Of a stretch of DNA of 44,774 bases, positions 1 through 24,275 are shown piece after piece. This DNA comes from a virus. The stretch covers positions 1 to 44,774 of the IMG/VR virus record IMGVR_UViG_3300038421_000061; one strand, given 5' to 3'. The translations under genes were made by a program, and so were the position numbers. A model generated the notes under the pieces. It was not told the origin of the DNA and did not search any database. It saw only the letters and a list, made by a program, of their open reading frames with translations. Each line of letters opens with the position of its first letter. The first letter of the stretch is position 1.

Positions 1-41
1 GTGAATTACCCAGCCCCTCCAAAAAAATGGGTAGCCGCTGG

Positions 42-368
42 TCAGACCGATCTAGGATCGACGCTCAGCGATGCACGCGTGGGACGTGAGCGGCGATTGC
101 GTTCCTGGTTGCAGCACCGCGGCCGTCCCGTCGTCCGGCTCACGCACACCGGACACGGATAGTTGCTGCCGTGCGCCGGCCGGATGTTGTGCGGGTCGTA
201 CGGATCCCCACCGTCGGCCAGCCGGACCAGATGATCGCCCTCGTAGCCGCCAGGGTGGCCACACCACCAGCAGTCGGTACCCCAGAGCCGGAACGCCACA
301 GCCTTCGCTTCTCGCCAGCGTGCGCCGCGTCTGCCCACATTGGCAGGGTCAGGGACACGCCGCGCCAT
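42..368 (-). CDS. HNH endonuclease (terminase-associated type)
   Basis: The 108-residue product has the HNH layout: paired cysteines C33-x2-C36, the DH pair at 45-46 (GYEGDHLVRL), N61 and H66 in HNIRPAHG, then a second cysteine set (C72, C75, C85, C86) that would complete a structural zinc site. The family nicks or cuts DNA with one metal ion. Small HNH proteins next to the terminase genes assist cos cleavage in many siphoviruses. Here the small terminase gene is at the other edge of the window, reading the same way, so the two would be neighbours if the ends join. The ATG at 368 is used. The gene is last in the leftward early direction and is separated from the rightward gene at 492 by a 123-bp divergent region. 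Confidence 0.93.
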   Translation of the reverse strand: MARRVPDPANVGRRGARWREAKAVAFRLWGTDCWWCGHPGGYEGDHLVRLADGGDPYDPHNIRPAHGSNYPCPVCVSRTTGRPRCCNQERNRRSRPTRASLSVDPRSV

Positions 369-382
369 GGCTACACTGCGCC

Positions 383-410
383 GCTACGCGGCAGCGTAGC
401 AGATATCTGC
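383..410. promoter_or_regulatory. inverted repeat plus palindrome upstream of the HNH gene
   Basis: A perfect 7-bp inverted repeat GCTACGC-GGCA-GCGTAGC (383-400) is followed at once by a 12-bp perfect palindrome GCAGATATCTGC (399-410). Both lie in the short region between the divergent HNH gene and the gene at 492, so operator function is likely, but no protein can be assigned. The HNH promoter itself is not clear to me. Confidence 0.45.
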
Positions 411-430
411 GCGAATAGGCATAACGGACA

Positions 431-458
431 TTGGTGCGGCGTGTTGCGCCGCTGTGAT
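431..458 (+). promoter_or_regulatory. possible promoter and operator for the membrane-protein gene at 492
   Basis: TTGGTG (431-436) and TGTGAT (453-458) are spaced 16 bp apart. The spacer is almost entirely an inverted repeat, GCGGCG-tgttg-CGCCGC (436-452), which touches the -10-like box. This matches the operator-next-to-minus-10 layout at 3570-3640. The hexamers are weak, so this is a suggestion only. Alternatively the repeat is a small hairpin. Confidence 0.3.
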
Positions 459-491
459 CCCATCGACGGGACGACATCGAGGAGGGGCGGC

Positions 492-905
492 ATGAGCAAG
501 CGGACAAGTGTGTGGCCGTGGATCTCAGCACCCGTGCTGCTGGTAGCCGGCACCGTCGTGGTAGCGGCGGCGTTCATGGGCGGCAACGACAAGGGAGACG
601 ACGCCATCGAATCGCCCACCGCGCCGGCCGTCACCACCGCGGTTGTGCCGCGGGTCGCCGACCTGATGAAGCGCGCCGGGTGCAAGGGCAAGACGATCGG
701 GACGCAGCTGTACGCGGCCGAGACCGGACGGTGCACCCTGGCCAACGGAGAGGTCACCGTGGCAACCTTCGAGACCGCGCAGCTTCGGTCGAAGTGGGTA
801 CGGGCAGCGCGGGACCTCGGCGGCACCACCCACTTCGGAGACGGATGGGCCATCTGGTCACCATCCCGCACCGCAGCCTCAACCTTCGCCGCAGCCATCA
901 GGTAG
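492..905 (+). CDS. membrane-anchored protein of unknown function, lone rightward gene
   Basis: The 137-residue protein has a basic N-terminus, one hydrophobic segment at about residues 9-30 (a signal anchor or uncleaved signal peptide), an acidic/Pro-Thr linker to about residue 55, and an extracytoplasmic domain of about 80 residues with two cysteines (in AGCKGK and GRCTLA) that could form a disulfide. A strong GAGGAGG lies 6-7 nt before the ATG at 492. The reading frame stays open further upstream, but only this start has a ribosome site. It is the only gene on this strand outside the two switch regions and it converges on the early operon, overlapping the last 8 nt of the gene at 898. This position is typical of lysogenically expressed phage genes such as exclusion proteins; that role is inference. 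Confidence 0.85.
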   Translation: MSKRTSVWPWISAPVLLVAGTVVVAAAFMGGNDKGDDAIESPTAPAVTTAVVPRVADLMKRAGCKGKTIGTQLYAAETGRCTLANGEVTVATFETAQLRSKWVRAARDLGGTTHFGDGWAIWSPSRTAASTFAAAIR

Positions 906-1383
906 GTCTCCACTCGTCCCGGTAGCCCGGACGGTCGGAGTAGGGCAGGGCCAGTAGACGGACGGTCGAGCAATCCCCGTCGAGCACATAGCCGCAGGAG
1001 TCGATCTCGCCCGGCCGGTAATCGCTGTAGATGCTGCATTCATGGTCCCGCGCGTGCAGATCGAGGATGCGCCGCTTGGCTTCTACCTCGCGCAGCACCC
1101 GGGCGGGGTCGTGGCGGACGATGTGCCGGGCCTCGGCCCTCCACCCACGGGCCGCTTCCGGGCACCCGTCCATCTCGTCATCGCAGTGCCACATCTGGTA
1201 GTTGACTTCCCGGGACCACTCCGGGCCGGGGTTGTCGATATCCTCGGAGCCGACGCGCACCTCCGGGCCAGACGCGGCCCGATCGGTGATCGCTTCCCAG
1301 CGCTGACCGGTATCAGCGAGGCGCGCGTCCCGCTCGTCTTCGTCGAGCTGGGAGCGCAGCCACCCGGTCAGGTCATCAGTCAT
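898..1383 (-). CDS. DUF6221 family protein
   Basis: The 161-residue protein has the recognisable arrangement of DUF6221, a family common in actinomycetes and their phages: an N-terminal LRSQLDEDERDARLAD-type helix, a central HIVRHDPARVLREVEAKRR segment, and a C-terminal LLALPYSDRPGYRDEW motif. No biochemical function is known to me for the family. The start is set at the ATG at 1383, which overlaps the upstream stop by 8 nt (ATGACTGA); longer in-frame starts would run into the upstream gene. It is the last gene of the early block before the convergent gene at 492. Confidence 0.9.
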   Translation of the reverse strand: MTDDLTGWLRSQLDEDERDARLADTGQRWEAITDRAASGPEVRVGSEDIDNPGPEWSREVNYQMWHCDDEMDGCPEAARGWRAEARHIVRHDPARVLREVEAKRRILDLHARDHECSIYSDYRPGEIDSCGYVLDGDCSTVRLLALPYSDRPGYRDEWRPT

Positions 1384-1648
1384 CGGGATCACCAACCCAC
1401 ACCTCGACCCGGCCGTGGGCCCGGATCGCATCCCACAGCACCCGGGCGCCATCCACGTTCGCGTCGGCGAGCCCTTCGAGGTATGCGATCAACTCCCGGT
1501 CGTCGGTGCCGATCGTCGTATGGTCCCCGTGCAGCGAGCCGTCATGCCTCCACAGCCGATAAGCAAGGCGCCTCTTCAGTGCGTCGTCGAGATACTCGGC
1601 CGGCGGGATGTCCCTCGGTGCCGGACGCCAGTACATGCTGAAGCTCAC
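1376..1648 (-). CDS. hypothetical protein, 90 aa
   Basis: GTG start at 1648 in a 4-nt GTGA overlap with the upstream stop; an ATG four codons in is possible. The protein begins MSFSMYWRPAPRD and has a helical LDDALKRRLAYRLW segment and an acidic C-terminus. I recognise the style of actinophage early proteins but no function. It is translationally coupled to both neighbours. Confidence 0.82.
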   Translation of the reverse strand: MSFSMYWRPAPRDIPPAEYLDDALKRRLAYRLWRHDGSLHGDHTTIGTDDRELIAYLEGLADANVDGARVLWDAIRAHGRVEVWVGDPDD

Positions 1649-1941
1649 GATCCGTCACCCCTGTACTCTGCGATCGCCTCGCGCACGGCTCGCTCCGACC
1701 AGTCGCACGAGTCCCACCACTCGACCGCCTTCCACACCTCGCGGAGCCGCTTGGTTCGCACCTCGGCCCGAGTACGCCACTGCCGCAGCATGACGAGGAG
1801 TTCCTCGGTCTCCCGGGCGGCGTCTTCGGCGTAGCCGAGCCCGGCCAGCCGTTCCGCCATGGCCTGTAGGTCCGCTTCGTGCTTCATCAGGTCGTCTAAG
1901 TCATAGACCTGGCACAGGTAGTTGTAGCTGCCGCCGCTCAC
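1645..1941 (-). CDS. hypothetical protein with MSGGSYNYL N-terminus, 98 aa
   Basis: Starts at the GTG at 1941 in a GTGA overlap. The N-terminal MSGGSYNYL is a recurrent start of small unknown proteins in actinomycetes and their phages. The rest is predicted helical (DLDDLMKHEADLQAMAERL, then a long charged helix ending VEWWDSCDWSERAVREAIAEY). No catalytic motif is visible. Confidence 0.82.
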   Translation of the reverse strand: MSGGSYNYLCQVYDLDDLMKHEADLQAMAERLAGLGYAEDAARETEELLVMLRQWRTRAEVRTKRLREVWKAVEWWDSCDWSERAVREAIAEYRGDGS

Positions 1942-2330
1942 GTCAACCCCTCGTCATAGGCGTGGGAGCACTTCGACCAGCCGTCGTAGCTGTCCCCGCA
2001 GGTGCAGTAGGACTGGACGAGGTGCTCGGCGTACTCCTGGGTGAATCCGAGCGCATCAAGGAGGCGGTCCATCGTCAGCGGGTTGCGCACTGCCGCTTGC
2101 CGTTCCTCGGCGCGTTGCTGGGCGGCGATCCGTCGCCGCTCGGCCATCTCTTCGGGTGAGCAGTTGAACAGGCTGGTCACGGCAGCGTTGAAATTCTCCA
2201 TCTCATCTGCAACCTCTCGACTGACCGTCAACCAGGTTCCAGCAAGATGGACAGACACGTCAGGGAGCGCCGCTACCTTGTCCCGGGCGTCCGGGCCGTA
2301 CGGGCCGTACGGGCCATCCATGTTGCTCAC
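1938..2330 (-). CDS. hypothetical protein with Cys/His-rich C-terminus, 130 aa
   Basis: AGGAGG lies 5-6 nt before the GTG at 2330, which also forms a GTGA overlap with the gene upstream; the ATG three codons in is the alternative. Near the N-terminus a 9-bp DNA repeat encodes PYGPYGP. Residues 60-100 are a charged, probably coiled segment (EEMAERRRIAAQQRAEERQ). The C-terminus carries three cysteines and a histidine (YCTCGDS...KCSHAYDEG) that could bind zinc. Function unknown. Confidence 0.83.
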   Translation of the reverse strand: MSNMDGPYGPYGPDARDKVAALPDVSVHLAGTWLTVSREVADEMENFNAAVTSLFNCSPEEMAERRRIAAQQRAEERQAAVRNPLTMDRLLDALGFTQEYAEHLVQSYCTCGDSYDGWSKCSHAYDEGLT

Positions 2331-2887
2331 CGCAACCTCCTCAGCTGCTCCAACGACCACCCACAACGGCGAGCGGCCAGCGCCCACCACGACTCCACAT
2401 CCGCGGCCAGCCAGTCAGCGATAGACGGAGCCAGCGTCGGGGCCTCACCGACCAGGCGGCGCAGCACCGCCTTATGCCAATCCACCTCCGTCAACCCGGC
2501 GCCGGCGCACACCGGGCCGCCGCGCTCCCGCAGCACCAGCACCCGGCACGACGCATGGAGACAGCCGTGCAGGAACCGCGGCGGCGACGGCAGGTCGAGC
2601 TTGGCGTGCCAGAAGCTGATCCCCACGTACACCTCCGCCAGAGCATCAGCTGTGTCCGCCGACCAGCCCACTGGTGGGCGGGAGTCCGGCACCCGGCGTC
2701 GTTCCGGGCCCTGACTGGCTGCCCCTGGCCCGGCCGCCGTGCGTAGCGCGTCCAGCAGCGGCGGGTGGGACACGATCCGCGCTTCGCCCCGGCGCCCGAC
2801 CGCTGCCCGGATCGGCTCGCAGAGCTGCCGCACGTCATCCGCCATCTGGGCCAACGTGTCGTGCGACGCCGCAGTGCTAGCCACCAT
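2327..2887 (-). CDS. hypothetical protein, 186 aa
   Basis: ATG at 2887, overlapping the upstream stop by 11 nt. The protein starts MVASTAASHDTLAQM, continues with a helical region, then a central FLHGCLHASCRVLVLRERG stretch with two cysteines, and ends with Trp-rich helices (DVESWWALAARRCGWSLEQL). The frame is open for another 62 codons upstream, but those codons overlap two other coupled genes. No family recognised. Confidence 0.8.
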   Translation of the reverse strand: MVASTAASHDTLAQMADDVRQLCEPIRAAVGRRGEARIVSHPPLLDALRTAAGPGAASQGPERRRVPDSRPPVGWSADTADALAEVYVGISFWHAKLDLPSPPRFLHGCLHASCRVLVLRERGGPVCAGAGLTEVDWHKAVLRRLVGEAPTLAPSIADWLAADVESWWALAARRCGWSLEQLRRLR

Positions 2888-3116
2888 CGACCCCCTGAAC
2901 CGGGTACGGGCCGGGAGCCCAGCGCATCCCGGACGGCTGAACCGGCGGGGTGGAACGACGCTCGGTCGCGGCAAACCCGATCGCTGCGCCCTGCTGCTGT
3001 GGCCAGCCGCCGGCCTGGCGGAACAGCTCAAGCGCCCGGTCGGCAACCTCGGCGAGCGGATCGTCCGCCTCAACCTCGATTGTGGCCCCAGGGGTGTCGA
3101 TCTTTACGCGGGTCAA
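2877..3116 (-). CDS. hypothetical protein, 79 aa (TTG start)
   Basis: The best start is TTG at 3116: GAGGAGG lies 7 nt upstream and the codon makes a TTGA overlap with the upstream stop. The product begins MTRVKIDTPGATIEVEADDPLAEVADRAL, a beta strand then a helix, which resembles a common unknown actinomycete phage protein. The C-terminal third is Pro/Gly-rich and probably disordered. Confidence 0.8.
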   Translation of the reverse strand: MTRVKIDTPGATIEVEADDPLAEVADRALELFRQAGGWPQQQGAAIGFAATERRSTPPVQPSGMRWAPGPYPVQGVDGG

Positions 3117-3283
3117 CGGTCGGCCTCCTCGGTGCCGAACTGCGCATCCAGCAGCGCCTCCCGCTCGGCCGCGATCAGCGTGTCGTCCCGGACGATCACC
3201 AGCTGCAGACGAAGCTCGTCGAGGAGTGCCCACGCTGGACTCAGTGCGCCGGTGACCCGTAGGTCCACCTCACGGCTAGCCAC
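3113..3283 (-). CDS. small hypothetical protein, 56 aa
   Basis: GTG at 3283 follows GGGGAGG by about 5-6 nt, and the stop overlaps the next start in a TTGA. The product (MASREVDLRVTGALSP... ending FGTEEADR) is mostly helical and amphipathic, with a VIVRDDTLIAAEREALLDAQ segment. It is short but fits the coupling pattern of its neighbours exactly. Function unknown. Confidence 0.75.
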   Translation of the reverse strand: MASREVDLRVTGALSPAWALLDELRLQLVIVRDDTLIAAEREALLDAQFGTEEADR

Positions 3284-3301
3284 GGCCGCCTCCCCGGTGC
3301 C

Positions 3302-3535
3302 TTACCACGCCCGGCTGATCCGGCGGCGGGCCCGCAAGGTGTCCTGGGTCCAGTCCTCCCGGATCCGCGCCCGGCGCCCGGTGGTCCGGATGTCCAGGAC
3401 GGCTTCCTTGCGGCTCTCGGCGAGGGGGAAGAACCGGCCGAACTTGGCCCGGTTCTTGGGGGAGAAGGTGGGCCGCGGGGTGGTGGAGGTGGCGGCGTGC
3501 TGGACCTTGGTCTTGGTTTCCCGCTTCATTGTCAT
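3302..3535 (-). CDS. basic hypothetical protein, 77 aa; first gene of the leftmost leftward transcript
   Basis: ATG at 3535 with a GGAGAGG ribosome site 9-10 nt upstream; an alternative ATG follows two codons later. The protein is very basic (about one residue in four is Arg or Lys) and contains RPTFSPKNRAKFGRFFPL, so a nucleic-acid-binding role is plausible. It is the first gene read leftward from the operator-bearing promoter at 3570-3598, facing the HTH gene at 3648, so the HTH protein probably controls it. Confidence 0.8.
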   Translation of the reverse strand: MTMKRETKTKVQHAATSTTPRPTFSPKNRAKFGRFFPLAESRKEAVLDIRTTGRRARIREDWTQDTLRARRRISRAW

Positions 3536-3569
3536 TGTCCCTGTCCTCTCCCCTTTTCTGTATGCCACT

Positions 3570-3598
3570 AGCATAGCCCAATGTTGGGCCTAACGCAA
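3570..3598 (-). promoter_or_regulatory. leftward promoter with operator in the spacer
   Basis: Reading leftward: TTGCGT (-35, 3593-3598), a 17-bp spacer, TATGCT (-10, 3570-3575). The inverted repeat GCCCAA-tg-TTGGGC (3576-3589) fills the spacer and directly abuts the -10, so a bound regulator should block RNA polymerase. A leader of about 30 nt with GGAGAGG follows before the ATG at 3535. Confidence 0.65.
3576..3589. repeat. operator copy 1, inverted repeat GCCCAA-N2-TTGGGC
   Basis: Identical in sequence to the copy at 3621-3634, 45 bp away centre to centre. With its flanks, this copy is the reverse complement of copy 2 except at the central two bases, so the two sites face opposite promoters in mirror arrangement. 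It is the probable binding site of the HTH protein encoded at 3648. Confidence 0.7.
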
Positions 3599-3620
3599 GG
3601 CAAATTGAGGGAAACACTGG

Positions 3621-3634
3621 GCCCAATGTTGGGC
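3621..3634. repeat. operator copy 2, inverted repeat GCCCAA-N2-TTGGGC
   Basis: The second exact copy of the 14-bp element. It ends one base before the TACAAT -10 box of the rightward promoter, as copy 1 does for the leftward promoter. Confidence 0.7.
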
Positions 3635-3648
3635 TACAATAAGAGACA
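3635..3648 (+). promoter_or_regulatory. -10 of a probable leaderless rightward promoter
   Basis: TACAAT (3635-3640) is followed after 7 nt by the ATG at 3648. That spacing puts the transcription start at or next to the A of the start codon, and no Shine-Dalgarno sequence precedes the ATG. Leaderless mRNAs with this TANNNT-N7-ATG layout are common in actinobacteria. The -35 is poor: TTGAGG at 3605 is 24 bp away. Confidence 0.6.
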
Positions 3649-3896
3649 TGACCACCCACGACACCACCCGACTGCAAGCGCTCGGGAAGCGCCGACAGCG
3701 ACTCGCGGCCCAACTGGCCGAACTCGACAACGAACTCGAACCAGAGATCTACGCGGCGGCCCAGGCCGGAGTTCCTCAGGTCGAAATCATCCGGTGGACC
3801 GGAATGGCCCGGGAAAGCATCCGACTCAAGAGCATGACGCCTGAGGAACGCGAATCCGAGCGCCAGAAGCGCCGGAAGGGGGCCCCTGGTGAATAG
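3648..3896 (+). CDS. small HTH DNA-binding protein, probable autoregulated repressor
   Basis: The 82-residue protein has an N-terminal charged helix (residues about 5-30, RLQALGKRRQRLAAQLAELD) followed by a likely helix-turn-helix (about 31-58, EIYAAAQAGVPQVEIIRWTGMARESIR) of the type seen in small actinomycete plasmid and phage regulators, and a basic acidic-mixed tail. It probably binds as a dimer to the two identical inverted repeats at 3576 and 3621, repressing itself and the leftward genes. The start has no ribosome site, which fits a leaderless mRNA. It is the only rightward gene inside the early block. Confidence 0.82.
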   Translation: MTTHDTTRLQALGKRRQRLAAQLAELDNELEPEIYAAAQAGVPQVEIIRWTGMARESIRLKSMTPEERESERQKRRKGAPGE

Positions 3897-3967
3897 CGCA
3901 AAACCATACATGGCAGTCCCCGCAGTGGTCGAGCAGCGGTGCGCGTGAGCCGCGCGACGAACCCACG

Positions 3968-4585
3968 TCATCGCCCCTCCTCGGTGCTCTCTGAGGAGAC
4001 CGGCCGGGCGCGTGCCCGCTCAGCCATCGCCACACAGTCCCGCCAGCCTTGCTGATACGCAGCGACGATATTGATGTGGCCGAGACTGTCCGGCTTCCGC
4101 TGGAAGCGGGTCACCACGCTGGGTTCGTAGCCGGCCGCCACGGCGCGGTTGACCAGCCGGCGCCACTCCGGGTCATCCATCATCGGCGTGGTGTCCCGGA
4201 TCGCCAGGAAGGCGTCCCGGTGGCGGGCCAGCTCGGCGCGCAGGAATTCGATCTCTTCGCGGGCGTCGGCTGGTAGGAGCCGGCCGGCGTCCTCCAGTGC
4301 GGCGCGTTCGTCCTGCCTGCCCAGCTCGTACCCGGCGTGCGCGGCAAGGTCCACAGCTATGTCTTTCGGTGCGCTCCCGCCCCGGAGGGACTCGGTAACC
4401 TCCACCATGCGGAGCCGGCCGGCCGCAGCCAGAGCATCGAGGATGGCCCGCGCCCACGCCCGGCCCTCGGCCCGTTCCCTGGGACACACCGATTCCCAGT
4501 CGAAGTCCCCATCGGGAAAGCCAAGCTCGTGATACGTCCGGGCTACCAGCTCTACGTCTGCGTCGGTGTACGGACGCTCACCCAT
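3968..4585 (-). CDS. hypothetical protein, 205 aa
   Basis: ATG at 4585 overlaps the upstream stop by 8 nt (ATGGGTGA). The N-terminal region (YTDADVELVARTYHELG...) and the segment WARAILDALAAAGRL occur in other phage early proteins I know only as hypothetical. A helical EEIEFLRAELARHRDAFLAI stretch near residue 120 may be a short coiled coil. The 70 nt between its stop and the convergent gene ending at 3896 show no strong terminator. Confidence 0.83.
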   Translation of the reverse strand: MGERPYTDADVELVARTYHELGFPDGDFDWESVCPRERAEGRAWARAILDALAAAGRLRMVEVTESLRGGSAPKDIAVDLAAHAGYELGRQDERAALEDAGRLLPADAREEIEFLRAELARHRDAFLAIRDTTPMMDDPEWRRLVNRAVAAGYEPSVVTRFQRKPDSLGHINIVAAYQQGWRDCVAMAERARARPVSSESTEEGR

Positions 4586-4991
4586 TTGCGATCTCCAATA
4601 AGACGTCCCCATGACACGGGGAATCGAGCGGGCACCAGCACGCCAGGTCCTTACCGGACAGCTCCCGGCGGGCCATCTTGTAGTCCTCCGGACCCCACTC
4701 GTAAGCCAGCCACGCCCGCAGCAGCTCCACCGCGTGGGCCCGGTCCCGGACCACCGCAATCGTCTCCGTCCACGGCTCCAGATCGGGCGTCATGCGCTGG
4801 CAGGGGCCCGGCATGCGGGGGTCGCCGTCGGGGAGCACCTGCGGTCGACGGTGCGCCCACGTCCGATCCGAGAAGCGGGCACCGACGGCGAATGGATTTC
4901 CCCAGCGCGACGGGCGGCCGACGTACACCGCTCCCTCGGGCATCCGCCAGCCCTTCGTGCGCTGGCGCTGGATACGGCGTGGCTCACCCAT
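4578..4991 (-). CDS. DUF4326 domain protein
   Basis: The 137-residue protein has the DUF4326 signature: VYVGRPSRWGNPF near the N-terminus, a central AVELLRAWLAYE helix, and the C-terminal DLACWCPLDSPCHGDVLLEIAN. The W-C-x4-5-C-H triad is conserved in the family and suggests a metal- or nucleotide-linked role. The domain is frequent in phages; its biochemical role is not known to me. ATG at 4991 overlaps the upstream stop by 8 nt (ATGGGTGA), the same junction as the next gene downstream. Confidence 0.92.
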   Translation of the reverse strand: MGEPRRIQRQRTKGWRMPEGAVYVGRPSRWGNPFAVGARFSDRTWAHRRPQVLPDGDPRMPGPCQRMTPDLEPWTETIAVVRDRAHAVELLRAWLAYEWGPEDYKMARRELSGKDLACWCPLDSPCHGDVLLEIANG

Positions 4992-6081
4992 CGGTACGCC
5001 CCCGAATCCTCAGCTCGTGCTCGATCATCTCCAGCAGCTTGGCCGGATCGGACACCTCGATGTTGAGCACCATGCCCGGCCGGCGTCCGGCCAGGATCCG
5101 CTCGGTGGCATCGATAGCGGCATCCAGGGCGGCGACGATAACCGCCCGGGGAGCCGCATACGCGTTGCGGGCGGTGAGGCGCGCCGCGTCCGCCTCGGCG
5201 TAGATAGCGCGACGATCAGCGTCGGTGATGGCGGGGAAAGCCCTTACCGGTACCTCCCCGCCAGCACCCCGCCGCGCCTCGGCCCGCTCTCGCAGCATCC
5301 GCGCATTCCAGTGCTCACCCGGCCGCTCCCCGCCGGTCGGGCCGACGTAGTCCGGGCGCGCCGGTACCTCCCCGGAGGACTCCCGGACAAGCCGTGCCGC
5401 GTCGGCGATTGCCTCCCGGTAGCCAGCCCACCATGCGGGTGATGCGGGACTCGGGTCGGGACCGGGATGGGCTGCAATCTCCTCGGCCAGCCGCTCAAGG
5501 TCTGGCAGTATCACCCGCCACGGATCGGCCCCGCGCAGCGCCGACCCTAGTCGGGCGATATCGGCCTGGGCCTGCTCCAGCTCGCCCTCCTTGCTGCGCC
5601 AGGCGCCGAGCATGCGCTCCAGTTCGGCGCGGGCCTCGGCCAATTCGGCGAGCGCACCATCCCGCTCCAGCACGGTCTCCCTGACCATTCCTGGCAGCGA
5701 GTCCATCAACTCGGCGACGGGTGAGAGAGCCCTGGATATCTCATCGAGGACCAGTTGGGCCGCGTCCAATTCGGCGCGCGTGTTCGCCAGTACTCCGGCG
5801 AGCCGGGACGATTCGGCTTGCTCGCGCTGTAGCGCGGCGCGGGCCTCGGCCAGCTCCGCGCTCAGCTTGACTGGTCGGCGACCGGGCTCGACCGGCAGGC
5901 CGAGCGGTACCTGATCCAACCGATCGTCGGGCTGCTCCTCGGTGTTGACCGCGCCGCGCGGGGCGAAGCTAGTCAGCACCGCATCGGCAAGCCGCTCGAT
6001 CGCGGCGGGATGGGCGGCCGGACCGTACTGCTTGACGTAGCGGGCATCGGCGTAGATCTCTGCCAGATTCGGCGTGCTCAC
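4984..6081 (-). CDS. coiled-coil protein, 365 aa
   Basis: GTG at 6081 in a GTGA overlap. The N-terminal about 60 residues (NLAEIYADARYVKQYGPAAH) are followed by a long coiled coil (about 70-195, with LAEARAALQREQAESSRL and ALAELAEARAELERML heptads), a WWAGYREAIADAARL helix, and a C-terminal Ala/Arg-rich helical region ending in NIEVSDPAKLLEMIEHELRI. It is the largest unassigned early protein. A scaffold or DNA-structuring role is possible, but no catalytic motif is visible. Confidence 0.85.
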   Translation of the reverse strand: MSTPNLAEIYADARYVKQYGPAAHPAAIERLADAVLTSFAPRGAVNTEEQPDDRLDQVPLGLPVEPGRRPVKLSAELAEARAALQREQAESSRLAGVLANTRAELDAAQLVLDEISRALSPVAELMDSLPGMVRETVLERDGALAELAEARAELERMLGAWRSKEGELEQAQADIARLGSALRGADPWRVILPDLERLAEEIAAHPGPDPSPASPAWWAGYREAIADAARLVRESSGEVPARPDYVGPTGGERPGEHWNARMLRERAEARRGAGGEVPVRAFPAITDADRRAIYAEADAARLTARNAYAAPRAVIVAALDAAIDATERILAGRRPGMVLNIEVSDPAKLLEMIEHELRIRGRTDG

Positions 6082-6503
6082 TCCTGCCTCCCGGCGGGTT
6101 CGGCCAGCCGGGCGATCGCGAGGTTCTTCTCGACCTCGGCGCGCACCCGCTCCGACGCGGACGCCCACGACGGCAGCTCGACCACCTCGAACGGCCCGGA
6201 CAACCCCCGCAGGGCGTGACGGGACGTGGTTGACTGCGCGATCACATCCCTGCGGGACAGGCCACGCTCCCGGCGCCACGCTTCGATCTCCGGCACGTTG
6301 CCGCACACCACGTAGCGGGTTTTCCTCACCCCTGGGCTCCAGTCCTTGACCGTCAACACCCGGGTGCCATTGGCGTGCCGCTGCTCACCGGCGAGCCAAC
6401 ATGGGTAGAAGGTGAGCAGGATGTAGTCGCCCGCCTGCACCTCCCTGGTCGTCGACACGCCCATCTCAAGGTCCTCGACGGTGACTCTGTATCCCGCGCT
6501 CAC
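6078..6503 (-). CDS. hypothetical protein, 141 aa
   Basis: GTG at 6503 in a GTGA overlap. The first half is beta-rich (YRVTVEDLEMGVSTTREVQAGDYILLTFYPCW, then GTRVLTVKDW); the second half is helical and basic. No family recognised. It is coupled to both neighbours. Confidence 0.8.
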   Translation of the reverse strand: MSAGYRVTVEDLEMGVSTTREVQAGDYILLTFYPCWLAGEQRHANGTRVLTVKDWSPGVRKTRYVVCGNVPEIEAWRRERGLSRRDVIAQSTTSRHALRGLSGPFEVVELPSWASASERVRAEVEKNLAIARLAEPAGRQE

Positions 6504-6760
6504 TCGCCCTGCCTCCCTACGGGCTCCGGATGATGCACGCCGTCAGCGCGGGACACCATCACGTCCACCAGCATCGGGTCACCGCGCCGCGCGCTGACGG
6601 AGTCGGGGTGCGTGGTGAACACCTGGACCCGCTCGACCCGCCATCCGCCGCCATCGTGAATGACGATCAGGCCCGGCTGTGGCAGGGCCGGGAACGACAC
6701 GGGCTCTCCGACGAACGTGTCGTCGGCGTCGTCGTAGAAACGGACCCGGAACGCGCTCAC
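6500..6760 (-). CDS. hypothetical beta-rich protein, 86 aa
   Basis: GTG at 6760 in a GTGA overlap, with a purine-rich GGGAGAGGAGAGCAG stretch just upstream acting as ribosome site. The sequence SAFRVRFYDDADDTFVGEPV... LIVIHDGGGWRVERVQVFT suggests a small all-beta fold. Function unknown. Confidence 0.8.
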   Translation of the reverse strand: MSAFRVRFYDDADDTFVGEPVSFPALPQPGLIVIHDGGGWRVERVQVFTTHPDSVSARRGDPMLVDVMVSRADGVHHPEPVGRQGE

Positions 6761-6966
6761 TGGTTCTGCTCTCCTCTCCCAGCACCCGCCGAGCAGGTCC
6801 GGCACTCGCCGCGCACATCGGTCAACGGAAGGCCAGCGATGCCGCGCTCGATCTCCTCCTCGGTGACATCACCCAGGAGCTGTCCGCAGCCGTTGCACGC
6901 GCGTTTGACGGTAATGACGGTGCCGGTCTCGGTCTTCCGGTCCGGGGTCCATGGCCGGTCGCTCAC
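6757..6966 (-). CDS. small zinc-ribbon protein, 69 aa
   Basis: GTG at 6966 in a GTGA overlap. Two CxxC pairs (CNGCGQ near residue 24 and CRTCSA near residue 56) flank a short acidic helix, which is a zinc-ribbon pattern. The last residues (GRGEQNQ) are encoded by the purine-rich junction sequence that also serves as ribosome site of the next gene. Confidence 0.83.
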   Translation of the reverse strand: MSDRPWTPDRKTETGTVITVKRACNGCGQLLGDVTEEEIERGIAGLPLTDVRGECRTCSAGAGRGEQNQ

Positions 6967-6983
6967 TGCTCTTGTCCTCTCCC
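6963..6983 (-). repeat. repeated gene-junction element, copy A
   Basis: 21 bp identical to 7556-7576. Read leftward it is GGGAGAGGACAAGAGCAGTG plus A: ribosome site, the tail codons of one gene (GRGQEQ) and the GTGA stop/start overlap of the next. Confidence 0.8.
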
Positions 6984-7559
6984 AAGCACTGCGTCGTACA
7001 GATCCCGGGCCATCCGGGCGTCGCCCAGTGCGGTGTGCCGGTCGGCTTCGTCGTACTTCAGCCCGTACGCGGCGAGCAGGTCATCGAAGCCCCACGGCGG
7101 CGTCATCCTCAGCGCGCCAGCGGCCAACGTCTCGACGTCGACCAGGTGGTAGTGGTTGGTCGCGGCCTGGGAATGCTTCGCCAGGAAGCGCTGAAGGAAG
7201 CGCTCATCGAACCAGGGCACCGCGCCCACGAGGTACGCGCCGTCGAGCATCGGCGCCAGCTCGGCGGCGACCCGACTAGCGAGCGTCCGCCGCTCGGGAT
7301 CAGTGCGCGGGTAGCCCTCGTAGTCGGGGTGCACGGTCCGGCTTGCCGACTGCTCCATCAGCTTTGCCAATATCGACCGCTGGTAGTACCGGCCGATGCG
7401 CAGCCCGGTCGGCTCGGCGCCCTTCAGGCTCGGACGGAGTTGCCACTCGTACTCCACATCGGGCTGTCCATCCTCGCGGAGGATCGCGCCGATCTCCCAG
7501 ATCTCACAGCGGTCCGGGTTCAGCCCGGTGGTCTCCGTGTCGATGAAAACGATCTTCAC
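6963..7559 (-). CDS. DnaQ-like 3'-5' exonuclease
   Basis: The 198-residue protein is a DEDDh exonuclease. Exo I is FIDTETTGL at residues 5-13, giving the catalytic D7 and E9. An Exo II-like LVGAVPWFDERFLQRF lies near residue 115. Exo III is HTALGDARMARDLYDAV near residue 180, with the H and D of the active site. The family removes 3' nucleotides from DNA or RNA and can proofread or process ends. GTG at 7559 is in a GTGA overlap; the open frame extends further upstream only as a shadow of other genes. No phage DNA polymerase is present, so it may act with host replication or with the recombination genes. Confidence 0.94.
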   Translation of the reverse strand: MKIVFIDTETTGLNPDRCEIWEIGAILREDGQPDVEYEWQLRPSLKGAEPTGLRIGRYYQRSILAKLMEQSASRTVHPDYEGYPRTDPERRTLASRVAAELAPMLDGAYLVGAVPWFDERFLQRFLAKHSQAATNHYHLVDVETLAAGALRMTPPWGFDDLLAAYGLKYDEADRHTALGDARMARDLYDAVLGRGQEQ

Positions 7560-7576
7560 TGCTCTTGTCCTCTCCC
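7556..7576 (-). repeat. repeated gene-junction element, copy B
   Basis: Exact 21-bp match to copy A at 6963. A diverged copy sits at 7822-7845 (core tgctcttgtcctctc on the plus strand), and a shorter match (tgtcctctccc) lies upstream of the start at 3535. Confidence 0.8.
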
Positions 7577-7825
7577 GGCACCCGCAAAGTCGGCTGCGTA
7601 CTCCCGGATCAATGCGGAGTACACCGATGGTGGGAGCGGCACGTCCGGTCCCTTGTCGATGGAATCGGCGAGCACGCCGAGCGCGGCGGCCAGCCCGGCG
7701 CAGAGGGCAACGTCCCGGTCGACGGCGCCGAGGGTGCCCGCGTGCCACGGCAGCAGCGTCTCTTCGACTGCCCGGTCGGTCGCCTCCAGCATGTTGCTGG
7801 CAACGACGGTTGACAGACTGATCAT
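7556..7825 (-). CDS. hypothetical protein, 89 aa
   Basis: ATG at 7825 in an ATGA overlap. The helical sequence MISLSTVVASNMLEATDRAVEE... LCAGLAAALGVLADSIDKG has a hydrophobic central helix that could pack in an oligomer or touch a membrane. It ends in GRGQEQ encoded by the repeated junction. Function unknown. Confidence 0.8.
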   Translation of the reverse strand: MISLSTVVASNMLEATDRAVEETLLPWHAGTLGAVDRDVALCAGLAAALGVLADSIDKGPDVPLPPSVYSALIREYAADFAGAGRGQEQ

Positions 7826-8040
7826 GCTTGCTCTTGTCCTCTCTCGATGCCCCGAAGGGCCGCGCGTACGGCATCCTTGTGGTCCCGGTGCCAGCGCTTC
7901 CGGGCCGCGTCGCTGTCCAGCACCGCCGAGCGCCAACCGCACGAGCAGACGGCAGCGCCGACCTTCCCCCGGTAGCCGAGGACGTCGAAGATTCGGCCCT
8001 CACGCTTCAACTCATGACCGGGCAGGCGGTTGTCTATCAC
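7822..8040 (-). CDS. small C2H2-like zinc protein, 72 aa
   Basis: GTG at 8040 in a GTGA overlap. The segment CSCGWRSAVL...KRWHRDH gives a C-x-C-x15-H-x2-H style cluster, a pattern I recognise in many small actinophage proteins. It ends RGQEQA from the repeated junction sequence. A nucleic-acid or protein-contact role is likely but unproven. Confidence 0.82.
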   Translation of the reverse strand: MIDNRLPGHELKREGRIFDVLGYRGKVGAAVCSCGWRSAVLDSDAARKRWHRDHKDAVRAALRGIERGQEQA

Positions 8041-8810: not shown

Positions 8811-9764
8811 TCAGACCTCGGCGAACAGAGTCGGTATCGCCATCTCCTCATCCAGTCGGCGCAGGTTGTCCACCGCGGTACGCCAATACGACGGCTTCAA
8901 CTCGATGCCGATCCCCTTCCTGCCGAACTTCACCGCGGTGTAGACCTCCGACCCGATCCCGGCGAACGGGGTCAGCACCAACTCCCCGGGATTGCTCCAC
9001 AGCCGGATACACCGCTCGATCAGATCCAGCTGCAGCGGGCAGATGTGCCGCTCGTCCGCGTCATCCCGGGCCACCCGGACATTTAGCGTGTTGGTTTCCT
9101 GGATCTCGTACCAGCAGTCCCGGGGGACGATCAGCCCCTCCTTCACCATGGCTTCCCATGGTTCGTCGGTGCCCTGCCAGATCGGCCGGGCCCACTGAAT
9201 CCAGGTGTCGTTGTCCACGTCGCCGCGGATCGGGTCCGGGTTGTCGCCGGGCGCGCGGAACATCAGCAAATAGTCGGCGAGTGCCGGCCGGGTCATCGCC
9301 GAGTCCCGCCGCAGGGTTTGGAACATCAGGGCCTGGGCCTTGGTGCGGATCGCCTGCGCCTGCGGGTCCTTGTCGACGGTCACCTCGCCGTGGAAGATCC
9401 AGCCGGCGTCGGTGAACGCCCGGATCACCTCCCCGCGGAAGTCGGTCATCCCCACCACACCATGGGTCGTCTTGGTGGTGGTGATCTGCTGGACGTGGAC
9501 GCACGCCAGCCGGCCCGGCCGGGTCACCCGCAGTTGCTCGCGGATGATGAACCGATAGTGATCGAAGAACTCGCCCCGACTCCGGGAGTTGGACAGGTCC
9601 CGCGGGCTCGGGGAGTAGTTGTAGAGCTGGGCGAACGGCGGTGAGCACACCGACAGGTCCACCGAGTCGTCGGGGATCTCGGCGAGCCGCTCGCACGAGT
9701 CGCCCAACAGCAGCCGCCAGGACTCACCGGCGGCCTCATCGGTCACGTACATGTCCTCGGTCAC
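8811..9764 (-). CDS. DNA methyltransferase, beta class, probably N4-cytosine
   Basis: The 317-residue protein has catalytic motif IV SPPF at residues 41-44 near the N-terminus and the SAM-binding motif I near the C-terminus (LTPFAGIGSE, about residue 268). This order defines beta-class amino-methyltransferases. SPPF rather than DPPY favours N4-methylcytosine, though N6-adenine cannot be excluded. The central 150 residues would hold the target-recognition domain. GTG at 9764 forms a GTGA overlap with the helicase stop; an ATG at residue 5 is the alternative. No cognate restriction enzyme gene is seen. Confidence 0.93.
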   Translation of the reverse strand: MTEDMYVTDEAAGESWRLLLGDSCERLAEIPDDSVDLSVCSPPFAQLYNYSPSPRDLSNSRSRGEFFDHYRFIIREQLRVTRPGRLACVHVQQITTTKTTHGVVGMTDFRGEVIRAFTDAGWIFHGEVTVDKDPQAQAIRTKAQALMFQTLRRDSAMTRPALADYLLMFRAPGDNPDPIRGDVDNDTWIQWARPIWQGTDEPWEAMVKEGLIVPRDCWYEIQETNTLNVRVARDDADERHICPLQLDLIERCIRLWSNPGELVLTPFAGIGSEVYTAVKFGRKGIGIELKPSYWRTAVDNLRRLDEEMAIPTLFAEV

Positions 9765-11053
9765 GCGGCCAGCCTCCAATGTGTATCGCGCATCTGCTCC
9801 ACGAGTTCGCCCGTGAACCGGGCGGCCTCGCGCTCCTTGCGGCCGACGTTCGCCGCTATCTGTCCCTCCAGCTCGGACAGCACGATGTGCACGTGCACCG
9901 GCCGGGCCTGCCCGTACCGCCAACACCGCCGGATGGCCTGGTAGTACGCCTCATAGCTGTCGTTGAGTCCGACGAACACCATCCGGGCGCAGTGCTGCCA
10001 GTTGAGGCCGAACGCCGCGATTCCTGGCTTGGTCACAAGGGTCTGTACGTCGCCTGCGGCGAACCCCAGTAGCAGTTCCGCCTTCTGCTCCGGGCTCATC
10101 GAGCCGTGAACGTTCACCGCGCCGGGGATCGCTCGAGCGAGTCGGTCCGCTTCGTCGTTGAGCCCGCACCACAACAGCCACGGCTCGCCAGGCTCAGCGG
10201 CCACCAACTGGGCGGCCCGTTCCACCCTGGCAGCGAGGGTCTCCCGGCGCACCTTCGCCCGACCGCCAACACCGCCCAGGTCGGTCGGGAAAAGCTGCCC
10301 CTCGGCGTGCATGTCGACCGGCACCAACTCCGGCCGGATCGACAACTCGGGCAGCACGTACCCGTCGTCGGGAAATCCGATGTCTGACGGCCGGCGAAGT
10401 GCCACAGCCCAGCCGGACATCCACCGGAACATGGGCGCGCGGGCGTGGCCCTTCGGACGCCACCCCTGATCGTCGTGCACGAAGTAGGTCGAGAGCATCT
10501 CCACCCGGCTAGCTCGGCCGAGGAACTCGGCATGGTTCGCCAACTCGGCCACGTCGTTCGGCGCCGGCGTGGCTGAGCACGCCAGTCGCCGCGGCACGTC
10601 CGCGAACTGGGCTATCAGCCGGTTCCGGGTGGCGCTGGCGAAGTCCTTCAGGATGGACGACTCGTCCAGCACCACCGCGTCCAGCGACTCCGGGTCGAAG
10701 CGGTCCACCATCTCGTAGTTGGTGATCCGGATGCCTTCCGGTTCGCCGTCCTCGCGCACGTACCGCACGGTCAAGCCGATCCGCTCGGCCTCCCGCACCG
10801 TCTGCGCGCACACCGCCAGCGGGGCGACAATCAGCGCCCTGGACCCGGACAGCCGTGCCCATTCCAGCTGCATCCGGGTCTTGCCCAGCCCCGTGTCCGC
10901 CCACACCGCACACCGGCCGGTGCGCACCGCCCACGCCACGATCCGGGCCTGCCACGGGTGCAGGCTCGGATGCACCTCGGCCACGTCGACCGGCGTTCCG
11001 GCAGCACCCGCACGGGCCTGCTTCGCGGCCAGAAACTCATGGTACGGCGTCAC
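9761..11053 (-). CDS. SNF2-like superfamily 2 helicase
   Basis: The 430-residue protein has the SF2 motifs in order: Q-like region SLHPWQARIVAWA, Walker A ADTGLGKT (52-59), motif II LDESS (129-133), motif III SATPAPND (160-167), and a C-terminal domain with motif V-like TKPGIAAFGLNWQ and motif VI YYQAIRRCWRYGQ (about 375-387). These identify an ATP-driven DNA translocase of the SNF2/phage helicase group. GTG at 11053 in a GTGA overlap. It is coupled to the methyltransferase downstream; such helicase-methyltransferase pairs recur in actinophages. It may serve replication, recombination or protection of DNA. Confidence 0.95.
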   Translation of the reverse strand: MTPYHEFLAAKQARAGAAGTPVDVAEVHPSLHPWQARIVAWAVRTGRCAVWADTGLGKTRMQLEWARLSGSRALIVAPLAVCAQTVREAERIGLTVRYVREDGEPEGIRITNYEMVDRFDPESLDAVVLDESSILKDFASATRNRLIAQFADVPRRLACSATPAPNDVAELANHAEFLGRASRVEMLSTYFVHDDQGWRPKGHARAPMFRWMSGWAVALRRPSDIGFPDDGYVLPELSIRPELVPVDMHAEGQLFPTDLGGVGGRAKVRRETLAARVERAAQLVAAEPGEPWLLWCGLNDEADRLARAIPGAVNVHGSMSPEQKAELLLGFAAGDVQTLVTKPGIAAFGLNWQHCARMVFVGLNDSYEAYYQAIRRCWRYGQARPVHVHIVLSELEGQIAANVGRKEREAARFTGELVEQMRDTHWRLAA

Positions 11054-12368: not shown

Positions 12369-12600
12369 CGGGTGCCCCGATCTTCCGCAGGCACCGCCGG
12401 CACTTCGGCAGCGCCGCCGCGGTCTCGTACTCCAGCTGAGACCCGGTGCCGCGCCACTGGTCGTACGTCCACGGACCGATCCCGCACTCGCTGACGCATT
12501 CCCGCGGGCTGGTCAGCGCGTGCGTTACCTTCCCGTCGACGGTGTAGCGCCACTCGTACCGGTCCACCACGCGTGTCGGCTCATCCGCCATCGCGGTCAT
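12361..12600 (-). CDS. hypothetical protein with CxxC pair, 79 aa
   Basis: ATG at 12600 in an ATGA overlap with the PAPS-reductase-like gene. The protein contains YEWRYTVDGKVTHALTSPRECVSECG, then a C-terminal KCRRCLRKIG that could bind metal with the earlier cysteines. An ATG in-frame three codons later is possible. Function unknown. Confidence 0.8.
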   Translation of the reverse strand: MTAMADEPTRVVDRYEWRYTVDGKVTHALTSPRECVSECGIGPWTYDQWRGTGSQLEYETAAALPKCRRCLRKIGAPGG

Positions 12601-13439
12601 GTGAAGCACATCCCGTTGTCGCACCCGGTGTCGTCGTGCTCGCTGATGTCGAAGATGGGCAGCATCGCGCCCGCCTCCGGGATCGCGTCCGCGAGCGGCC
12701 GGTTGAACCGGGTCAGGTAAACCGGGTCCTTCTCCAATGTGGTCCGGCGCTCGTTGAGCAGGTCCTCCAAGTCGCACGCCCGACGGAACAGGTCCGGTTC
12801 GTCGCGACGCATCTCCGCCCACACCTGCGGCCGGTGGAACGGGCAGAACCAGCACGCCGACTTGCCCGGCACCGGCAGCCCGGCCGCGCTGATGACACGT
12901 TCGCAGTCCTGCCGCCGCAACGGCGGATTCTGGTCGAGCAGCGGATACACCGGATGCTCGTATGGCATCGCGCGCCGCTTGTTGACGCGCTCGATCTCAT
13001 CCAGGCTGATCCCGATACCGACCGTGGCCGGATTGTCCTCGGTGGCGCCGTGCGCCTTCAGCCACGCGCCGATGACCTCGATCTTGTACGTGGCGGTACA
13101 CGAGCGGGTACCCGGCGCCCCGTTGGACATACGCACCGGGATCGGCAGCGACCGCGACCCCTCCCGGGTCAGGCGGCCATACAGCGTCTCGACCTGGCCA
13201 GCAGCAACCCCGCGCTGGCGCACCTTGTGCAACTCGTGCAACTCGATGCCGTGCCGCTCGGCGTACGGGCCCGCCACCTCACGGACGTACGTCAGCGTTC
13301 CCGGGTGTTCCGAGTCGTCGCCGACGTTGGCGAACAGGAACACCGGGAAGTCGATGCGACCGGTCGCGGCCAGCACGAGCGCGGCCGTCGACTGGACACC
13401 CCCGCCGTAGCTGAACGCCCGCAGCGTTGTCGCGCTCAT
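12597..13439 (-). CDS. PAPS-reductase-like PP-loop ATPase
   Basis: The 280-residue protein has a PP-loop variant FSYGGGVQSTAAL (residues 8-20), which binds ATP or an adenylylated substrate in the N-type ATP pyrophosphatase superfamily. Four cysteines (RSCTATYKI, QDCERVI, and ACWFCPFH) resemble iron-sulfur-bearing relatives such as DndC. The family includes phage proteins annotated as PAPS reductases whose substrate is unknown. No DndA, DndB, DndD or DndE homologue is seen here, so phosphorothioation is not supported by context. ATG at 13439 in an ATGA overlap with the small gene at 13436. Confidence 0.9.
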   Translation of the reverse strand: MSATTLRAFSYGGGVQSTAALVLAATGRIDFPVFLFANVGDDSEHPGTLTYVREVAGPYAERHGIELHELHKVRQRGVAAGQVETLYGRLTREGSRSLPIPVRMSNGAPGTRSCTATYKIEVIGAWLKAHGATEDNPATVGIGISLDEIERVNKRRAMPYEHPVYPLLDQNPPLRRQDCERVISAAGLPVPGKSACWFCPFHRPQVWAEMRRDEPDLFRRACDLEDLLNERRTTLEKDPVYLTRFNRPLADAIPEAGAMLPIFDISEHDDTGCDNGMCFT

Positions 13440-22964: not shown

Positions 22965-23431
22965 CGGGTCACCCCCGCGCCCCGGCTGGCCCTCACACCA
23001 GCCGGGGACACCACACCGAGCGCAGCGGAGATCCAGTCATCACCACGTCCGGGCGTCAGGGTGGGCCCGGCCGCCGCCTCACCAACAGCGGCCGGGCCCG
23101 GGGTGGAGACGAGCACCGACCGCCGAACGGCGCTCATCTCCGGAGAGGGGGCGTACGAGGGGCCGCTCGGGGGAGGAGTCAGCGGCCGGGGCGGGGGGAG
23201 AGGAAGAGGAGGGGCTGGGGGACGCGGAGGGGTGGCGCACAGCCGGCCGACGACCAGCAGGACCGCCAGCCCGGCACCAACCGCGGCGCCGACCAGACCG
23301 TGGAACTCCAGCCACGGGTACGCGCCGGCGATCAGCAGAGCTATTCCGACGCCGGTGAGCAGACGGGCCAACAGGGACAGGACCGCTGGGAGCGCCTTCG
23401 CCGGGACCGGTCCGGTGGTCAGAGTGGTCAT
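22961..23431 (-). CDS. two-pass membrane protein with Pro-rich tail, 156 aa
   Basis: ATG at 23431 in an ATGA overlap with the Cro-like gene. Hydrophobic segments at about 15-38 (LSLLARLLTGVGIALLIAG) and 45-65 (HGLVGAAVGAGLAVLLVVG) flank a short loop; the rest is a Pro-rich repeat-like tail (PPRPPAPPLPLPPPRPLTPPP) and a low-complexity end. Function unknown. Confidence 0.82.
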   Translation of the reverse strand: MTTLTTGPVPAKALPAVLSLLARLLTGVGIALLIAGAYPWLEFHGLVGAAVGAGLAVLLVVGRLCATPPRPPAPPLPLPPPRPLTPPPSGPSYAPSPEMSAVRRSVLVSTPGPAAVGEAAAGPTLTPGRGDDWISAALGVVSPAGVRASRGAGVTR

Positions 23432-23658
23432 GCCGCACTCCGAGTGTCCGCCGGAAGCATGTCGCGGATGTTCATGCCGAGCACCTCGGCCAGGAGCGCC
23501 AAGTCGTCGACGTCGCACGCGGTCTTCGCGGTGAATCGGTCGCTCACCCAGGCGTCAGACCGGCCGCAACGACGGGCGACCTCCTTCTGCGCCAGACGCT
23601 GCCGCGCCGTCTCGGCGCGCAGCACCCCCGCCACGTAGTCGCGTACGGTGTGTGTCAT
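23428..23658 (-). CDS. Cro/excise-like HTH protein, first early gene
   Basis: The 76-residue protein has an XRE-type helix-turn-helix at about 20-44 (RLAQKEVARRCGRSDAWVSDRF) and a following helical pair (DDLALLAEVLGMNIRDML). It is divergent from the repressor at 23759 and is the first gene of the leftward early operon, the position of Cro or an excisionase-like controller. ATG at 23658; GGAG touches the start, but the promoter spacing predicts a leaderless mRNA. A perfect operator lies in its promoter. Confidence 0.88.
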   Translation of the reverse strand: MTHTVRDYVAGVLRAETARQRLAQKEVARRCGRSDAWVSDRFTAKTACDVDDLALLAEVLGMNIRDMLPADTRSAA

Positions 23659-23664
23659 GGCTCC

Positions 23665-23693
23665 ATGATGTGAGGCAAAGCCTCACACGTCAA
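23665..23693 (-). promoter_or_regulatory. leftward early promoter, leaderless type
   Basis: Read leftward: TTGACG (23688-23693), 17-bp spacer, CATCAT (23665-23670), 6 nt, then ATG at 23658. This spacing places transcription at or next to the start codon. The operator GTGAGGC-aaa-GCCTCAC occupies the spacer. Confidence 0.7.
23670..23686. promoter_or_regulatory. operator of the immunity switch, 17-bp inverted repeat
   Basis: A perfect GTGAGGC-aaa-GCCTCAC, centred between -35 and -10 of the leftward promoter. It is the likely binding site for the repressor encoded at 23759. A shorter related palindrome CTGAG-t-CTCAG lies at 23699-23709 and may be a second, weaker site. Confidence 0.68.
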
Positions 23694-23722
23694 GTGCGCT
23701 GAGTCTCAGATCGGCCGAAAGG

Positions 23723-23752
23723 TTGACTAGGTTTGGCTATACCGGTCATCCT
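23723..23752 (+). promoter_or_regulatory. rightward repressor promoter, leaderless type
   Basis: TTGACT (23723-23728), 18-bp spacer, CATCCT (23747-23752), 6 nt, then ATG at 23759 with no ribosome site. The layout mirrors the leftward promoter (TTGACG-N17-CATCAT-N6-ATG). Confidence 0.6.
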
Positions 23753-23758
23753 TAGGCT

Positions 23759-24271: not shown

Positions 24272-24275
24272 CTGA

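Follow-up and report, generated by a model that had tools for sequence, protein, structure and literature searches.

The operator of KorA is a short palindrome near the -10 box of the promoter. The Aca autorepressors have their inverted repeats, one or two in number, within the core promoter, and according to PMC9410906 and PMC8434428 their autorepression extends to a small partner gene. Rco of the Bacillus plasmid pLS20 is described in PMC4207663 as acting at the divergent promoters Pc and Pr through two operators, with a tetramer, DNA looping, and activation of its own promoter at low level. The locus described here resembles Aca1 and Aca2 in three respects: a small helix-turn-helix (HTH) protein found on mobile elements, a core promoter with inverted repeats, and a small partner that varies. 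It resembles Rco in that one regulator sits between divergent promoters and would control both itself and the opposite operon.

The locus is part of a stretch of 44,774 bases from one virus record with a G+C content of 68%, which was analysed as a whole and is called the window. Judged by its gene content (terminase, portal, head and tail genes, integrase, and a CI/Cro-like pair at 23428-24271), the window is a temperate tailed phage, and the relatives of the gene for the 82-residue HTH protein point to a host among the Micromonosporaceae. Elsewhere in the window, a phosphoadenosine phosphosulfate reductase-like gene (phrog_424, 12597-13439) lies within the leftward gene run, and the reading frames of a DNA methyltransferase-like (8811-9926) and a helicase-like protein (9761-11053) overlap as listed; their start codons probably need revision.

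Putative operators between two divergent genes

The features of the locus and of the main immunity region are as follows.

898 to 3233, minus strand: probable remainder of the left transcript (genes at 2877-3233, 2327-2887, 1938-2390, 1645-1941, 1376-1648 and 898-1452)
3302 to 3535, minus strand: first left gene, 77 residues, basic, no family match, alternative start at 3529
3570 to 3575, minus strand: left -10 box TATGCT of a predicted promoter, adjoining OL1
3576 to 3589: putative operator OL1, GCCCAATGTTGGGC, a 14-bp 6-2-6 inverted repeat found by repeat search and kept in the orthologues
3588 to 3601: putative third, degenerate operator OL2, GCCTAACGCAAGGC, sharing 2 bp with OL1 in a 12-bp register, with counterparts in the orthologues
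3617 to 3622: tentative inner half-site CTGGGC beside OR, lacking a matching partner half
3621 to 3634: putative operator OR, GCCCAATGTTGGGC, 14 bp, found by repeat search and kept in the orthologues
3635 to 3640, plus strand: right -10 box TACAAT of a predicted promoter, adjoining OR
3648 to 3896, plus strand: gene of the 82-residue HTH protein, from the open reading frame, the phrog_686 profile match, the AlphaFold2 model and the heptad leucines
23428 to 23658: Cro-like gene, main immunity region
23759 to 24271: HTH_3 repressor gene, main immunity region
24276 to 25088: integrase gene, main immunity region

An earlier note on this DNA had described two identical inverted repeats 45 bp apart, each touching the -10 box of one of two divergent promoters, with flanks that are reverse complements except for two central bases, and a rightward gene for an 82-residue HTH protein. 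All of this is borne out. The repeats are exact copies of GCCCAATGTTGGGC with 45 bp from start to start, and the left (read from 3575 to 3570) and right -10 boxes directly abut one repeat each. The extended arms at 3574-3590 and 3620-3636, of 17 nt each, are complementary at 15 of 17 positions (88%) and fail only at the two central bases. From left to right, 3570-3648 holds the left -10 box, OL1, OL2, OR, the right -10 box, and the ATG of the HTH gene at 3648. The third, degenerate site at 3588-3601 had been overlooked in the note.

Both -10 boxes fit the pattern TANNNT, which occurs in the window at 0.0006 per position, and they face outward at a distance of about 60 bp. A full sigma-70 promoter with both hexamers was not found within positions 1-8000 of the window, the -10 boxes alone being recognisable. 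In Mycobacterium tuberculosis, an actinobacterium, leaderless starts are common, TANNNT is the -10 motif, and a -35 consensus was not found, according to PMC3898074. The right -10 box is 7 nt ahead of the start codon in the window, and the corresponding distance is 6 nt in one orthologue and 7 nt in the other. With this geometry the right promoter fits a leaderless mRNA.

The two repeats are the only sites in the whole window within one mismatch of the operator; with up to three mismatches there are 8 matches compared to 5.3 expected. The window contains 42 perfect 6-2-6 palindromes (shuffle mean 23.6), among which OL1 and OR are the sole pair with common half-sites within 100 bp, and any such pair appeared in just 1 of 300 dinucleotide shuffles. 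A chance origin of the repeats was rejected because the operators are kept in two orthologues, and a role in RNA structure because the repeats are located upstream of the expected start sites. The note had also set the locus apart from the main immunity region, and this separation stands: the Cro-like, HTH_3 repressor and integrase genes at 23428-25088 are devoid of the GCCCAA site and have a palindrome of their own. This different palindrome, TGTGAGGCAAAGCCTCACA at 23669-23687, is placed between the Cro-like and the HTH_3 repressor genes, its core is single-copy in the window, and it is the probable operator of the main immunity switch.

Translation of the left gene starts at 3535 or 3529, downstream of a Shine-Dalgarno-like stretch; the ATG at 3574 given in the list of reading frames falls within the left -10 box. 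Judged by the gene spacing, the left transcript probably extends through seven small genes to 898. These include members of DUF7341, phrog_6724, and DUF6221, which are family assignments that do not imply a function, and the left gene itself has no match to any regulator family in Pfam or the phrog profiles. On the other side, no terminator was recognised between the HTH gene and the oppositely directed leftward gene run (3968 and up), and for the stretch downstream of the HTH gene the predicted folding is not stronger than that of shuffles (z 1.08). In Actinoplanes italicus, a strong hairpin is found at the position 3' of the HTH gene (z -9.2), as expected for a self-contained cassette. It is tempting to speculate that lytic readthrough from the leftward run could oppose expression of the HTH gene and also express the left genes.

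The phrog_686 profile ('HTH DNA binding protein') matches the 82-residue protein at residues 8-55 with an E-value of 5.6e-5, and it also matches 9 of the 10 members of the alignment at E<=0.01. The AlphaFold2 model, built on 3 sequences, consists of helices at residues 3-39, 44-62, and 65-76 with a mean pLDDT of 87. Leucines at residues 9, 12, 19, 23, 26, and 30 occupy heptad a/d positions together with an arginine at 16, and the N-terminal heptad helix is thus a plausible dimerisation helix preceding the HTH. Pfam gave no HTH domain for the protein, and family scans with Pfam and NCBIfam no convincing model. PDB searches by sequence and by fold did not give a convincing match either; the fold search contained lambda CII at a Z-score of 2.9, amid unrelated rows. 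The search for phage and plasmid relatives gave no match at E<=0.01, and the genome-contig search resulted in one locus.

Orthologous modules and the wider family

Outside the window, only two orthologues of the 82-residue protein were found, one in the viral contig L003 (80% identical) and the other in a prophage region of Actinoplanes italicus DSM 43146 (76% identical). In both, the repeats are located between divergent genes. Both repeats and both TANNNT boxes are kept in all three modules including the window, so that in each of them conserved inverted repeats overlap or abut core elements of both divergent promoters. The counterpart of OL1 is GCCTAACGTTGGGC in L003 and GCCCAACGTTGGGC in A. 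italicus, and that of OR is GCCCAACGTTGGGC in both. OL2 is represented by GCCTAGCGCAAGGC in L003 and GCCCAACGCTAGGC in A. italicus in the same 12-bp register after OL1, and its arms are complementary at 4 of 6 (window), 5 of 6 (L003) and 4 of 6 positions (A. italicus). The inner half-site near OR reads TTAGGC and CTAGGC in the orthologues versus CTGGGC in the window. The left -10 boxes (TATACT in L003, TAAGCT in A. italicus) are one base away from OL1, and the right ones (TACCGT, followed by the ATG after 6 nt, in L003; TAACGT, with 7 nt, in A. italicus) touch OR as in the window. OL1 and OR are 45 bp apart in the window and 57 and 58 bp in the orthologues. This variation gives no evidence of helical phasing between the two sites, and the three spacings by themselves would neither prove nor exclude a looping tetramer of the Rco type.

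Within the 11.2 Mb genome of A. italicus, GCCCAAnnTTGGGC is confined to this intergenic region, and the exact site GCCCAANNTTGGGC is present at two places, both in the same region. Because the backward control pattern also has two occurrences there, it is the position and not the count that serves as evidence. Similarly, the spaced pair of two GCCYARNNYTRGGC sites was found in 1 of 354 Micromonosporaceae genomes, upstream of the orthologue, compared to 5 of 354 for the backward control. The pair counts alone do not beat the backward control, and the argument depends on the location of the hits. A wider regulon was rejected since neither the window nor the A. italicus genome contains additional sites. 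In viral contigs a looser operator pair was detected in 8 stretches (6 for the backward control); two of the 8 are the orthologue contigs, and the other six do not contain a family gene. One of these six stretches is in the unrelated viral contig L005, where several TGCCCAAYRTTGGGCA-like palindromes lie within or next to small genes (552-567, 995-1045, 1240-1255) and look like scattered operators of a different regulator.

The left genes of the window, L003, A. italicus, and the element pMLP1 do not show any mutual similarity at E<=1. Because the sites are kept although the left gene is unrelated in each module, the sites should belong with the HTH gene, and by this comparison the operators move with the HTH gene and independently of the left gene. 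The gene comparison covered 9.5 kb of the L003 contig, 16 kb of A. italicus, and 4 kb of pMLP1. There, the HTH gene is the only one of the 36 window genes with a match of about 80% identity (in the L003 contig and in A. italicus), the other matches being at about 30%. A gene shared alone at this level between otherwise diverged stretches gives the HTH gene and its operators the look of a mobile regulatory cassette.

More distant relatives are present in 13 of 354 Micromonosporaceae genomes with a three-row profile at E<=1e-3, in 53 of 354 with a ten-row profile at E<=1e-6, and in 5 of 394 genomes sampled from the class at E<=1e-4; loci were taken from part of the weaker profile matches only. 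The upstream regions of 39 non-redundant family members, including the three orthologues, were read. Several of the distant relatives have 14-15-bp inverted repeats with different half-sites at similar positions upstream of their own genes. Thus, GTAAAG..CTTTGC is found twice at 58 bp distance upstream of L014, GCCTAG..CTAGGC upstream of L011 and L013 with a second copy 12 bp further, and GCCACC..GTGGC twice at 46 bp distance upstream of L020, whose sequence is identical to pMLP1. A paired-repeat score matched by at most 1 of 60 shuffles was obtained for 11 of the 39 members, among them L015 with an unrelated GC-rich repeat; for the other 28 no pair stood out clearly from shuffles in the simple 14-16-bp test. 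Upstream of the 39 family genes, the mean number of GCCNA/TNGGC half-sites is 4.54 per 150 bp, compared to 1.38 in shuffles, 1.05 for the backward motif, and 0.74 upstream of 106 control genes from the same loci (maximum 3), which were unmatched in base composition and intergenic status. In 8 of 11 sequence clusters the average is at least 3.

By eye, at least three GCC half-sites accompany an acidic residue after the conserved arginine of the recognition helix in 29 of 36 members compared to none of the 3 non-acidic ones (p 0.013). A script assigned such half-sites to 25 of 32 members with an acidic residue and to 4 of 7 without one (p 0.24), and missed or misread the rows L022, L033, L050, and L053. 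Because two of the three non-acidic members are related to each other, the link between acidic residue and GCC half-sites is only suggestive. For a 12-bp register across the whole family the spacing statistics by cluster are too few for a claim. The divergent partner genes vary widely across the family except for one group of related chromosomal pairs.

Several loci of the family deserve separate mention. On the minus strand of L011, from 1448, the distant relative has GCCTAGTACTAGGC, GCCTAGTGCAAGGC, and GCCTAGTTATGTGC in successive 12-bp steps, which are overlapping tandem operators sharing GC. In the Micromonosporaceae chromosomes of L042 and L043-L054, TTGGCC(A/T)A repeats, often 24-25 bp apart, precede related small HTH genes, and the divergent partner genes of L043-L047, L049, L050, and L053 are related to each other. 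The pMLP1 locus (L069; CP058906.1, 5567-9716), a Micromonospora phage record without annotated features, encodes a family member whose 15-bp repeats form a pair at 46 bp distance.

Repression of both promoters and the rival readings

We propose, with a probability of roughly three in four, that the 82-residue protein acts locally and represses both divergent promoters, and with them its own gene. The comparison of the orthologues strengthens the earlier suggestion that the repeats are operators and the HTH protein their probable ligand and autoregulator. The protein would dimerise via its N-terminal coiled-coil-like helix, and each dimer would insert two recognition helices, one into each half of the 14-bp repeat. 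A dimer on OR would cover the DNA immediately 5' of the right -10 box and turn off the protein's own, probably leaderless, mRNA. Another dimer on OL1, aided by the overlapping weak OL2, would turn off the left promoter and with it the small phage genes behind. Because the right promoter has one operator and the left one a full and a degenerate operator, repression of the left promoter is expected to be no weaker than that of the protein's own. The outcome would be a low steady level of the 82-residue protein and silent left genes. Binding, dimerisation, repression and its relative strength, left genes that stay silent in the prophage, and a relief of repression are all inferred. The proposed mechanism is of a known kind, and the observation itself is real, conserved, and coherent.

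The protein could also be a dual regulator that represses one promoter and activates the other, either its own at low level as in Rco or in a MerR-like manner via the spacer. The operators fill the spacer and a -35 box is not recognisable, so that help from the bound protein is conceivable, and Rco of pLS20 both activates and represses its own promoter (PMC4207663). However, the operator touches the -10 box in all three right promoters, as repression predicts, the missing -35 box is the usual case in an actinobacterium (PMC3898074), and the protein has no MerR match in Pfam at E<=1. Activation is thus unlikely compared to repression of both promoters. Even less probable is the 'bistable-looking' circuit of the earlier note, in which the two promoters would drive mutually antagonistic products and lock alternative states. 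Divergent promoters with mirror-image operators might indeed suggest such a switch, but the same operator at both promoters predicts one protein repressing both. In addition, there is no candidate partner for mutual repression, because the left gene does not match a regulator family, and the modules of L003, A. italicus, and pMLP1 have unrelated genes in its place. We therefore rejected bistability.

Operators can be common to several regions of a phage, and the repeats could accordingly be sites of another factor, such as the main phage repressor or a host protein. This is very improbable given that the window has only the two sites within one mismatch and none at the immunity region, that in the A. 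italicus genome the site occurs nowhere but in this intergenic region, and that it travels with the HTH gene and not with the phage backbone. Finally, small DNA-binding proteins with adjacent repeats are found in plasmid partition, but it is hard to imagine that the repeats serve partition or replication instead of transcription, given the few sites, the integrase-type temperate phage, and the register of the repeats with the -10 boxes.

Comparison with known regulatory systems

Repression of both promoters by the 82-residue protein would provide a concrete operator and promoter geometry for a regulator family that has neither a Pfam nor an NCBIfam model, and the modules present what appears to be a regulatory cassette moving between otherwise diverged phages with the partner gene swapped. 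The literature searched did not contain a description of this regulator/operator system, and neither exact operator was among the matches listed. It could be imagined that the modules represent a divergent Aca-like mobile cassette of Micromonosporaceae phages and elements, which holds a changing set of small partners, some of them for anti-defence or host takeover, silent in the prophage. Together with overlapping operators in a 12-bp register and half-sites that change with the recognition helix, this would constitute a regulator family that the literature searched does not describe, a proposal that we consider unlikely. Should the partners have accessory or anti-defence functions, the HTH gene with its operators could be used as bait to search for such genes in actinobacteria; to our knowledge, few are known in this bacterial group. 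If they are not, the protein would be an ordinary autorepressor with good comparative support.

Like the CI/Cro switch, the locus has divergent promoters with shared operators in a temperate phage. However, it has only one regulator, the phage's own CI/Cro-like pair being at 23428-24271, and in place of two mutually antagonistic regulators there is a left gene that has no family match and is not conserved. The phrog_686 profile matches the window protein, and its library entry gives no operator, partner, or function. The plasmid repressor KorA/TrfB is similar in being small, of the HTH type and autorepressing, with a short palindrome close to the -10 box, and two of the ten alignment members, both distant relatives, match PF16509 (KorA/TrfB) weakly (best E-value 0.0067), whereas the window protein has no PF16509 match at E<=1. 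Compared to Rco, the -10 boxes are only about 60 bp apart here, without evidence of looping or activation. In the Aca systems the regulator belongs to the same operon as acr, whereas here the partner gene is divergent and there are two promoters; the partner is on the opposite strand in all four modules compared (window, L003, A. italicus, and pMLP1). Because of this divergent partner, and since no anti-CRISPR is known here, we do not file the protein as an Aca, the likeness drawn here being one of regulatory logic. What the locus has in common with Aca is that the gene of a small HTH protein has a core promoter, inferred from the -10 box, with an inverted repeat.
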